38,567 nt of DNA from Acidobacteriota bacterium (GTDB lineage: Bacteria > Acidobacteriota > Terriglobia > Bryobacterales > Bryobacteraceae). The stretch covers positions 1 to 38,567 of the forward strand of contig VFZW01000013.1 in assembly GCA_016871055.1 (NCBI GenBank), written 5' to 3'. The notes below the pieces were generated by a model. It ran no database searches. It saw only the letters and a list, made by a program, of their open reading frames with translations, and had not been told where the DNA came from. Numbering within the stretch: position 1 is the first letter of the stretch; the number at the start of each line of letters is the position of its first letter. Position numbers and translations under genes: made by a program. Positions 10,380 through 13,951 of this stretch are shown here, one piece after another.

Positions 10380-11393
10380 TTAGTTTTTTTTGGCGAGCGC
10401 CTTCGTTGCCCGTAGCGCGGCTTCGAGTCCGTTGCGCGAACCGGAGCGTGCTTTCGACTTTATCAGCCCCCCGAAGGTTCCTGTCAAACCGTCGGAGCGG
10501 GCCATGTTTAACACAACCAAGTAATGCGCCTTGCCGGGCTGCGATTCGTCGTCAACAAGCGCGCGAAGTTCGAGCGCGGTTTGGAAGTAATGCGTTGCGT
10601 AGAGTTGCTTGGTCGCGATAGCGTAGAGCGTAGTTGTGCCGGGCGGCACGGGGTGGATGACGACGTGGTTCAGACGAAAAACGGGCTTGAGGCCGAAGTC
10701 GGCGACGGACCAGTAGTAGAAGTCGTCGGTGCCTTTTGGGCGCGGGGCGGTTGGATAGCCGAGCAGAAAGCCGGTGAGCGGGACGAGATGATCGGGCAGC
10801 ATGTCGGAGCGTTTTATCATGTCGGCGAACTCTTCGGCGACGAAACGCGGGCGGTCGGTGTCGACGTAGGCGGCGAGCTCGGTGTTGCCACCTCGGCGGT
10901 AGGCTTCGACGTAGTCGAAGGCCGTCTTGCGGGCGAGATCGTTGACGCGCGTGGCGACGCCGGGGGACGCCCAATCGAGGCGCGCTACGGCGTCCATGGC
11001 GGGCTTTCCGAGTTTGACGGCGCACTTGCCGGGGCGGCATTTGCGGAGGTCGTTGATGTCGTCCTTGTCGACGGAGAAGGCGGCGAAGTCGTCAAGCTTG
11101 GGCGGCGTGCTGAGCTTGTGCGTGTGTAGAAACCCTTTGCCGGATTCGAGAGTTTCGATGTTGCGGATAACATCGATGGTGCGGGCGGCTGGGCGGTCGA
11201 TGCGGATGACGCCGGCGACGGACACTTCGCGGTCGACCTTGCCGTTGACAGGAACGGCAATAGGCTGGCCGGTGCGAAGGGTGGCGAGTTGCGCGGGCGT
11301 TAGCGCAAGTTTTTGCACAAGGAATTTTTCTAGTCTGGTTTGGGCGGGCAGGGTAAAACAAGCCACGAAGAGCAGGAGCGTGGGGGCGCGCAT
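10380..11393 (-). CDS. secreted protein of unknown function
   Basis: The likely start is the ATG at 11393, giving about 337 residues that begin with a signal peptide (MRAPTLLLFVACFTLPAQ). The frame stays open upstream to 11522, but that extension is not signal-like and lies opposite the Mn2+ riboswitch on the other strand, so I reject it. The mature protein contains LTPAQLATLRTGQPI, a KCRPGKCAVKL motif with two cysteines, and a FYYWSVADFGLKPVFRLNHV segment. I recognise no named domain. It is first in a five-gene minus-strand operon with an ATP-grasp ligase and a PhoPQ-related hydrolase. A CAAAAT sits 6 nt upstream of the start. Confidence 0.75.
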   Translation of the reverse strand: MRAPTLLLFVACFTLPAQTRLEKFLVQKLALTPAQLATLRTGQPIAVPVNGKVDREVSVAGVIRIDRPAARTIDVIRNIETLESGKGFLHTHKLSTPPKLDDFAAFSVDKDDINDLRKCRPGKCAVKLGKPAMDAVARLDWASPGVATRVNDLARKTAFDYVEAYRRGGNTELAAYVDTDRPRFVAEEFADMIKRSDMLPDHLVPLTGFLLGYPTAPRPKGTDDFYYWSVADFGLKPVFRLNHVVIHPVPPGTTTLYAIATKQLYATHYFQTALELRALVDDESQPGKAHYLVVLNMARSDGLTGTFGGLIKSKARSGSRNGLEAALRATKALAKKN

Positions 11394-11443
11394 CCCCCTA
11401 TTTTGCAACCAACACCCGTAATGTTGCATCCTATTGGGTGAAA

Positions 11444-11539
11444 GCAAGAGGGGAGTGGATCGCCCATCCGCGCGCTCGTCAAGACGGGTAACACCCCGGG
11501 CCGCGGCGTGAATCACCGTCACGGATCAAGACCTTTTGC
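11444..11539 (+). promoter_or_regulatory. yybP-ykoY (manganese) riboswitch aptamer
   Basis: The leader of htpX-terC contains the conserved parts of the yybP-ykoY aptamer. The left strand of P1 is GCAAGAGG at 11444-11451, followed at once by GGAGTGG (family GGAGTAG). The right strand is CCTTTTGC at 11532-11539, preceded by AAGA (family GAGACCTTT); the two strands pair over 8 bp with one G-U. Between them are a small hairpin (GGAT/ATCC at 11457-11469), the conserved TCGTCA at 11476-11481, and a GC-rich arm. This class senses Mn2+ and typically controls TerC/YkoY-family exporters, exactly the gene found downstream. The P1 right strand is also part of a terminator, so metal binding should turn expression on. 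Confidence 0.85.
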
Positions 11540-11569
11540 GCTAGCGATGGGCTAGTGCAGAAGGTTTTT
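11531..11569 (+). terminator. intrinsic terminator / expression platform of the Mn2+ riboswitch
   Basis: ACCTTTTGCGCTAGC at 11531-11545 pairs along its whole length with GCTAGTGCAGAAGGT at 11551-11565 (15 bp, two G-U), closing a 5-nt loop, and is followed by TTTTT at 11565-11569. It lies in the 5' leader of htpX and no plus-strand gene ends upstream, so it must act as a conditional terminator. Its left arm contains the whole right strand of aptamer helix P1 (11532-11539), so aptamer and terminator are mutually exclusive. Confidence 0.85.
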
Positions 11570-11590
11570 CGCATTTAGGAGTTAAACACA

Positions 11591-12445
11591 ATGAACCGCA
11601 TGAAAACGTACCTACTACTGGCCGCTCTGACGAGCCTGTTGATCGTCACTGGTCAACTGCTCGGCGGGCGCGGCGGGATGATGATCGCGATTGCGATGGC
11701 CGTTGTTATGAACGTCGGCTCGTACTGGTTCTCGGACACGATCGTGCTGAAGATGCACGACGCGCAACAGATTGGGCCTAACGATGCACCGGAGATCTAT
11801 GGAATGATCCAGCGGCTCGCGCAGCGCGCACAGATTCCGATGCCGCGCGTGTTTGTGATCCCCGACGATTCTCCGAACGCGTTCGCAACCGGGCGCAATC
11901 CGGCGCATGGCGCGGTGGCGATGACCGAGGGGATTCTGCGTGTTCTCAGCAAAGACGAATTGGAAGGCGTGCTGGCGCATGAGTTGGCTCACATCGCGCA
12001 TCGCGACACGTTGATCATGACCGTGTCGGCCACGATAGCTGGCGCGCTGAGTTCTCTCGGCAATATGGCGATGTGGGGCGCAATGCTCGGCGGCGGGCGA
12101 TCGCACGATGACGAAGACGGCGGCGGACATCCGATCGGCATGTTGGTGGGCGCGATCGTCGCGCCGTTCGCGGCGATGTTGATTCAGATGGCGATCAGCC
12201 GGTCGCGCGAGTATCTGGCCGACGAGGCCGCGGCTCGCTACTCCGGAAAGCCGTGGGCGCTGGCGAGCGCGCTGCGCAAGATCGAAACGTGGAGCCATCG
12301 CGTACCGATGGAGACCGGCGCCCCGGCGACGGCGCACCTCTACATCTCAAATCCGTTCTCGGGCGGCATGGCGAATCTGTTCAGCACGCATCCGCCGACG
12401 GCTGAGCGCGTCGCCCGCCTGGAAGCGATGGCGCGCGTTGCATGA
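11591..12445 (+). CDS. htpX: HtpX-type membrane zinc metalloprotease (M48)
   Basis: The 284-residue protein has two N-terminal membrane segments (to about residue 48), the zinc site HELAH at 130-134 with its third ligand Glu in SREYLADE (about 207), and two further hydrophobic segments in between and after. HtpX degrades misfolded or damaged inner-membrane proteins. A His/Asp-rich loop, [12 protein letters not shown] (about 170-181), lies between the membrane segments and could bind metal; that is inference. AGGAG at 11577-11581 is a good ribosome site for the ATG at 11591. It is first in the operon behind the Mn2+ riboswitch and overlaps terC by 4 bp (ATGA), suggesting translational coupling. 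Confidence 0.95.
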
Positions 12446-13452
12446 CCGAAGTCACCTACTTCCCGTTCGCGGAATATTGGTGGTTTTACGCCGGCTTCAC
12501 GACAATGATCGTGACGCTGTTGATCCTAGACCTCGGTCTGTTCAATCGCGTGGCGCATCATGTGTCATTCCGCGAGGCGGCGACGTGGGTGGTGGTGTGG
12601 GTATCGCTGGCCCTGGTGTTTTGCCTCGGGCTGCATCAGTATGTGCTGGCGAAGTTCGGCGCCGAGGTGGCGAAAGAGTTGGCCCTGGAGTTCTTAACGG
12701 GCTATGTGCTCGAAGAGTCGCTGAGCGTCGACAACATGTTTGTCTTCGTGGTCGTATTCGGCTACTTCGGCATTCCGCGCGAGCATCAGCACCGGGTGCT
12801 GTTCTTCGGCATTCTCGGCGCGCTGATTTTCCGGGCCATCTTCATCGCGCTTGGATCGGCGTTGTTACAGTTTCAGTGGACGGTGTGGGTGTTCGGCGCG
12901 ATTCTCATCGTGACCGGTTTGAAGATGATAACCGGGGGATCGTCATCGGTCGATCCGTCGCATAATCCGGCGATGAAACTGCTGCGGCGCTGTGTGCCTC
13001 TGACGAAGGAGTTGAAGGGTTCCGACTTTTTTGTCCGCATCGAGGGTCGATTGCACGCGACTCCGCTGCTGGCGTGCCTGATGGTTTTGGAGATGACCGA
13101 CATTCTGTTCGCGGTCGATTCCGTGCCGGCGATTTTCGCCGTGACTTCGGAACCGCTGGTGGTGTTCACGTCGAATATCTTCGCGATTCTGGGACTGCGG
13201 AGCTTGTACTTCCTGTTGGCGGGCGCGGTGCACCTGTTTCATCTGCTGAAGTACGGACTGTCAATCGTGTTAGTGTTTGTCGGGTTGAAAATGGTCTGGT
13301 TGAACCGGTTGTTCGACGGGCACTTTCCGATTGTGGTTTCTCTGGCGATCATTACGGGCGTAATCGTCGCGTCGATCGGATTGTCGCTCTTGTTTCCTAG
13401 GCCGCCAGAGCCTTCCGAAGCATCGCCCGCGCCCGATGCAGACGTTGCTTGA
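12442..13452 (+). CDS. TerC-family metal exporter (Alx/YkoY type)
   Basis: The 336-residue polytopic membrane protein carries both TerC signature acid clusters: [23 protein letters not shown] at about 93-115 in the first half and [18 protein letters not shown] in the second, within some seven to nine hydrophobic segments. TerC/Alx/YkoY proteins export manganese and, in Bacillus, help load metals into secreted enzymes. The riboswitch upstream of the operon fits a Mn2+ role. The ATG overlaps the htpX stop by 4 bp. The last ~20 residues (Pro/Ala/Glu-rich) are encoded in DNA that overlaps the convergent ECF sigma gene by 56 bp, so the tail is probably not functionally constrained. Confidence 0.93.
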
Positions 13453-13951
13453 CGTTGTCTTCGGTGATATCAAGCAGTGATGCGGTCTCCGCGGTGGACA
13501 TCTCCTCGACGTCGCGCAGCAGTATTACCGAGCGATAGTTCTCAGGGGTGGCGCGAAGCGCGCCTTCGAGTTCATCGTGGATTTCTTTACGCAGTAGGAT
13601 TTCATCCGGGCCGTCGGCGGCGGACTCGACTGGGACGTCGTCGATGGGCAATTCTTCGGCAGGGGCGAAAGCACTTTTGCGGCGCTTCAACATGCAGCAG
13701 TTGCGCGCGATGCGAAACACCCATGGCTTGATATTTTCGGGATCGCGCAACTGTTCCCAGTTCTCGAAGACCTTGAGTAGCGTATCCTGCGCCACTTCTT
13801 CGGGGTCTTCGCGGTGGCCGCACATTAACCACGTATACTGAAATACTTTCCTTTGGAAAAGTTCGACGAACTGCTGCATGGCGGCTTGGTCGCCTTGGAC
13901 CAGACGCCGCGCGAGGGCGACTTCAGGGCTGTCAATTTTCTCTGTCACCAA
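13397..13951 (-). CDS. ECF-type RNA polymerase sigma factor
   Basis: The 184-residue product is a compact sigma-70 family factor. Region 2 spans LARRLVQGDQAAMQQFVELF through EDPEEVAQDTLLKVFENW and WVFRIARNCCMLKRRK. After a short acidic linker, region 4 reads [51 protein letters not shown], the HTH that binds the -35 element. The start is TTG 13951 or GTG 13948; neither has a good ribosome site. It is divergent from the RND efflux operon, with a 17-bp palindrome between them, which suggests control of that operon or of itself. No anti-sigma factor gene is adjacent. Its 3' end overlaps terC by 56 bp. Confidence 0.93.
   Translation of the reverse strand: MVTEKIDSPEVALARRLVQGDQAAMQQFVELFQRKVFQYTWLMCGHREDPEEVAQDTLLKVFENWEQLRDPENIKPWVFRIARNCCMLKRRKSAFAPAEELPIDDVPVESAADGPDEILLRKEIHDELEGALRATPENYRSVILLRDVEEMSTAETASLLDITEDNVKQRLHRARAMLRKALAA

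Follow-up and report, generated by a model that had tools for sequence, protein, structure and literature searches.

The leader preceding htpX and terC in the analysed DNA (the window: positions 1-38,567 of contig VFZW01000013.1 in the Bryobacteraceae assembly GCA_016871055.1) is a further member of an established riboswitch family, genuine but ordinary. Taking all parts of the explanation jointly, we consider it very probable that this leader acts in cis as a yybP-ykoY-class ON riboswitch, with a terminator platform and with Mn2+ as its putative ligand (Table 1). It is most likely activated by Mn2+, which is the ligand that we infer from its resemblance to known members of the class.

Table 1. 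Features of the htpX-terC leader and of the genes that follow it (positions in the window)
Feature	Position	Strand	Basis or remark
Candidate promoter TGCAAC-N16-GCATCCTA	11404..11433	+	putative function; single exact occurrence in genome
yybP-ykoY (Mn2+)-type aptamer	11444..11539	+	87.5 bits, E 1.6e-18 in the whole genome with R1, a model from which the window was withheld
P1 5' strand GCAAGAGG	11444..11451	+	8 bp (one G-U) with 11532-11539
L1 5' side GGAGUG	11452..11457	+	consensus GGAGUA; A in 48/49 leaders compared
P1.2 5' strand GAUC	11458..11461	+	pairs with 11524-11527 (GAUC); MFE fold; covaries
P3.1 5' strand	11468..11478	+	pairs with 11497-11506; MFE; six pairs with two-sided changes
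L3, one-sided 7-nt bulge UCAAGAC	11479..11485	+	UCAnnAC in related leaders
P3.2 hairpin GGGU-AAC-ACCC	11486..11496	+	MFE; 3/3 modelled pairs covary
P4 hairpin CGUGA...UCACG	11507..11523	+	MFE; two-sided changes in 5/5 pairs
L1 3' side AAGA	11528..11531	+	[ACG]AGA in all leaders compared
P1 3' strand CCUUUUGC	11532..11539	+	common to terminator; pairs in one or the other, not both
Intrinsic terminator (predicted)	11530..11569	+	15-16 bp stem, GAUGG loop, short U-run; stem dG -26.2 kcal/mol
Shine-Dalgarno AGGAG of htpX	11577..11581	+	sequence; outside hairpin
htpX, membrane M48 metalloprotease, 284 aa	11591..12445	+	PF01435 E 1.2e-36
terC, TerC-family membrane protein, 336 aa	12442..13452	+	PF03741 E 5.6e-48

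The case for this assignment is built on conservation and covariation, and not on folding energy, since the stability of the aptamer by itself is within the ordinary range of shuffled sequences (z -0.6); its folding energy was consequently dropped as evidence. The leader together with the terminator folds better than 200/200 dinucleotide shuffles (z -3.8). A DNA search and an HtpX-based locus search found the leader conserved upstream of htpX in relatives, and eight same-genus aptamers were aligned with MAFFT (alignment A2), neither the window nor its 94%-identical twin (L002) being among them; the covariance model R1 built from this alignment is hence independent of both. The window's leader is the sole match of R1 in its genome. 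Elsewhere the model picks up leader L043 of the Pyrinomonadaceae (52.5 bits), htpX leader L100 of the Veillonellaceae (33.1 bits) and, at 29.1 bits (E 7e-5), the leader of E. coli alx. Exactly one copy is present in 15 of the 19 same-genus genomes, the four genomes without a match being 58-83% complete. Standard pairs fill 94.5% of the cells in the plain MAFFT alignment A2 (as compared to at most 49% with the 3' partners slid), with two-sided changes in 10 pairs; across 23 leaders the figure is 96.4% (at most 47% when slid), with two-sided changes in 20/30 pairs, this second alignment having been fitted to the model and the A2 figure being the fairer one.

Comparison with these relatives supported the yybP-ykoY identity and the anatomy put forward in the original prediction, despite a negative outcome with the Rfam 15 model RF00080, the very search that had been named beforehand as a means of refutation. 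RF00080 matched nothing in the window when the gathering score was applied, nothing within 11380-11600 even at E up to 10, and nothing anywhere in the whole genome, which places the leader below the 45 bits that define membership. We consider this result uninformative for the present subtype, because the positive control, the leader of E. coli alx (L137), goes undetected with the same model, as do 20/20 of the acidobacterial homologous loci tested. In alignments against L126 and L127, RF00080 treats P1 as single-stranded and assigns no pairing to the 3' side of L1; it is on account of these unmodelled elements, and of a fit shaped around mntP-type leaders, in which L3 is long, that the model passes over leaders of the kind described here. 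Five sub-threshold matches in relatives (L111, L113, L114, L117 and L118) were inspected and discarded as chance-like, none of them being such a leader. With an entire branch escaping RF00080 of Rfam 15, a standard model for annotation, Mn2+ control would be under-annotated, and the present leader brings acidobacterial htpX-terC operons into the range of a well-studied Mn2+ sensor.

The unconstrained MFE fold of 11444-11539 is exactly P1-L1-P1.2-P3.1-L3-P3.2-P4, and the sequence elements from which the leader had been recognised (GCAAGAGG at 11444-11451, GGAGTGG at 11452-11458, TCGTCA at 11476-11481, AAGA at 11528-11531 and CCTTTTGC at 11532-11539) were all confirmed in place. Four pairs of P1 display two-sided changes across leaders, and the same loop geometry recurs in RF00080-positive mntP-type leaders, there with P2 in addition. 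L1 (6 nt against 4 nt, closed by P1) agrees with GGAGUA/[AG]AGA save for one deviating base, G11457, in which the window stands alone among the 49 leaders; the L1 pattern was partly used to locate these leaders, so that variation could show at its last base alone. L3 reads UCAnnAC in 43/43 acidobacterial leaders, as it does in E. coli alx with UCAUUAC, and forms in the window a one-sided bulge that carries the invariant adenosine of the metal-binding type and lies beside the pairs C11477-G11498 and G11478-C11497 (features per PMC6754395). In the known structures, docking of L1 on L3 proceeds via an extruded L1 adenosine placed on the P3.1 C-G pair, and one L3 adenosine contacts Mn2+ through N7 (PMC6754395). 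Judged by sequence, L1, the L3 bulge (UCAnnAC) and the adjoining C-G pair match this Mn2+ pocket, and A11481 would be the expected Mn2+-contacting adenosine by virtue of its position and by analogy with A41/A48 (PMC6754395).

The proposed 15-bp terminator hairpin was recovered as an uninterrupted stem (11531-11545/11551-11565, G-U pairs included), which reaches 16 bp with G11530-U11566, and the right strand of P1 indeed lies inside its left arm (11530-11545 includes 11532-11539). A T stretch does follow, although not the five T originally described: T11565 is paired, and the unpaired T that remain are the four at 11566-11569, reduced to three if the stem is taken as 16 bp. A consensus terminator scan, which needs five T, did not score the hairpin of the window. 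The mutual exclusion of P1 and terminator is likewise supported, the arrangement being the same in relatives: in 15/15 same-genus leaders the P1 3' strand starts a 14-21 bp hairpin that is succeeded by a U-rich stretch, and in all 15 the hairpin does not include the Shine-Dalgarno sequence. In the growing transcript, P1 belongs to the MFE structure up to 11561, the terminator state is better from 11563 onwards (by 11 kcal/mol at 11569), and the MFE of the full leader is the terminator state.

On the basis of these structures we propose that, when Mn2+ is sufficient, L1 (GGAGUG/AAGA) would dock on L3 (UCAAGAC) around the metal and thereby stabilise helix P1; since P1 would then hold CCUUUUGC (11532-11539), the terminator could not form and RNA polymerase would read into htpX-terC. 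In the absence of metal, the arm 11551-11566 would take the 11532-11539 strand, and the resulting terminator would end transcription near 11569. As the htpX Shine-Dalgarno lies outside the hairpin, the sequence suggests that control in the window's genome acts on transcription rather than on translation, and the latter was rejected as the primary mode on the same ground. In a sister-genus terC leader (L154), a likely Shine-Dalgarno (GGAAAGG) is part of the right arm of the hairpin and a U-run is lacking, an arrangement that suggests a shift to translational output in that lineage.

The closest comparison is offered by E. coli alx, the leader of which is reported to be a manganese-activated yybP-ykoY riboswitch (PMC9603457) and shares with the window P1, L1 (GGAGUA/GAGA in alx), a 7-nt L3 (UCAUUAC in alx) beside a C-G pair, P3.2, P4, the lack of P2 and a TerC-family gene; it differs in that alx itself encodes the TerC-family protein and has a long P4, whereas the window has htpX first and an intrinsic terminator overlapping P1. 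The transcriptional yybP-ykoY riboswitch of Lactococcus lactis, for which a crystal structure exists and in which P1 is stabilised by Mn2+, also has a P1 3' strand common to an intrinsic terminator (PMC11087558, PMC6754395), and competition between P1 and terminator has been described for it (PMC11087558); its junction is four-way, in contrast to that of the window, where P2 is missing. The mgtA yybP-ykoY riboswitch of Streptococcus pneumoniae has a three-way junction in common with the window (PMC9495176) but controls a Ca2+/Mn2+ ATPase, while the window's leader precedes htpX-terC. The mntP-type RF00080 members (L126, L127 and L132) share the L1 loop and the overall order of helices, and differ by the presence of P2 and by a longer L3 (UCAACAUAC...), this being the subtype that the Rfam 15 model fits.

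Three other explanations were weighed against this one. The terminator state of the full-leader MFE and the negative RF00080 search would be in keeping with a plain intrinsic terminator (or attenuator) that resembles an Mn2+ aptamer by chance, yet the aptamer helices covary, the holdout match reaches E 1.6e-18, and both the phylum-wide conservation and the terC/htpX context speak for a true aptamer; the probability that we assign to such a coincidence is negligible, and the comparative data already contradict it. It is unlikely that the window carries a weakened or non-functional allele owing to the A-to-G change at 11457 in L1 (or that this base is an assembly error): G occupies the position in 1/49 leaders only, A being found in the 94%-identical twin genome (L002/L152), but all other core elements, P1 and the terminator are intact, and the loop may still accommodate G11457 as part of a G-A pair.

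The ligand itself is not readable from sequence alone, because a relative in S. pneumoniae prefers Ca2+, the mgtA aptamer binding it more tightly than Mn2+ (PMC9495176); alx, in turn, is activated by alkaline pH together with Mn2+ (PMC9603457). A switch of yybP-ykoY fold and identical terminator mechanism could on these precedents have another main signal (Ca2+, Cd2+ or alkaline pH), but TerC is a recurrent partner of the leader and the Mn2+-discriminating L3 adenosine is kept, and we regard such an input as quite improbable in comparison with the Mn2+-activated switch.

With respect to genomic context, the presence of TerC downstream had been offered as independent support for an Mn2+ switch. 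This argument holds insofar as the leader stands directly upstream of terC in other genera (L154, L156-L158, L163, L164, L166, L168-L171 and L178); it is weaker for the window itself, where the leader's neighbour is htpX, an order also met in other genera (L155, L160, L161, L167, L173 and L174). The terC start overlaps the htpX stop (ATGA), and terC comes after htpX in the same-genus loci L031, L033, L034, L035 and L040; it was not found downstream of htpX in the same-genus loci L036 and L038. A convergent ECF-type sigma factor gene (13397-13951, minus strand) faces terC. The genome contains a second TerC-family gene on another contig, alongside the single genome-wide R1 match. The searched literature held no paper linking htpX to the yybP-ykoY riboswitch class. 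HtpX and the TerC protein MeeF of B. subtilis co-purify (PMC10246235), and a common Mn2+ switch over htpX and terC would fit a connection of membrane quality control with the metal loading of exported proteins.

Upstream of the aptamer, the TGCAAC-N16-GCATCCTA boxes recur at the same place in the same-genus loci L031, L033, L035, L036, L038 and L040 (and nearly so in L034). They show no match to the sigma-70 consensus and possibly constitute an alternative-sigma promoter; a role as regulon-wide promoter was rejected, given that the exact form occurs once in the genome.

The window's leader possesses P3 and P4 and lacks P2, which results in a three-way junction. P2 is also absent in 12 other same-genus leaders, two leaders of the genus have a 2-bp P2, P2 and P4 occur together in five leaders of other genera within the family, and at least seven leaders of other acidobacterial groups (including the Pyrinomonadaceae leader L043) have P2 and 5-7 nt in place of P4. 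As the same comparison showed no P2 in E. coli alx, and as the mgtA riboswitch of S. pneumoniae has been described as three-way (PMC9495176), P2 is not strictly required, and for the same reasons its loss was rejected as a novelty in kind. On balance, and with limited confidence when all its parts are taken jointly, we favour the view that Acidobacteriota carry a TerC-type branch of Mn2+ riboswitches that is unseen by Rfam 15, has lost P2 in the present genus and P4 in at least one other acidobacterial family, is wired to htpX and other genes seldom linked to Mn2+, and has as its outputs termination and possibly the masking of Shine-Dalgarno sequences. The natural losses of P2 or P4 represent ready variants with which to probe which arms of the junction are needed for docking.

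Leaders of this type were also encountered in further settings. In L176, L177 and L179 the leader precedes a family of small secreted proteins (approximately 180-197 aa), which may represent a new Mn2+-linked gene; the L176 protein, the sole member of the family scanned, gave no Pfam match. The leaders of L180 and L181 precede look-alike proteins (that of L180 being a DUF2490 protein), L175 has a homologous leader before a 189-aa protein without a Pfam match, and in L165 a homologous leader is located near a universal stress protein gene. Far from Acidobacteriota, the Veillonellaceae locus L100 has an htpX leader of the same type (2324-2417) with an overlapping terminator.
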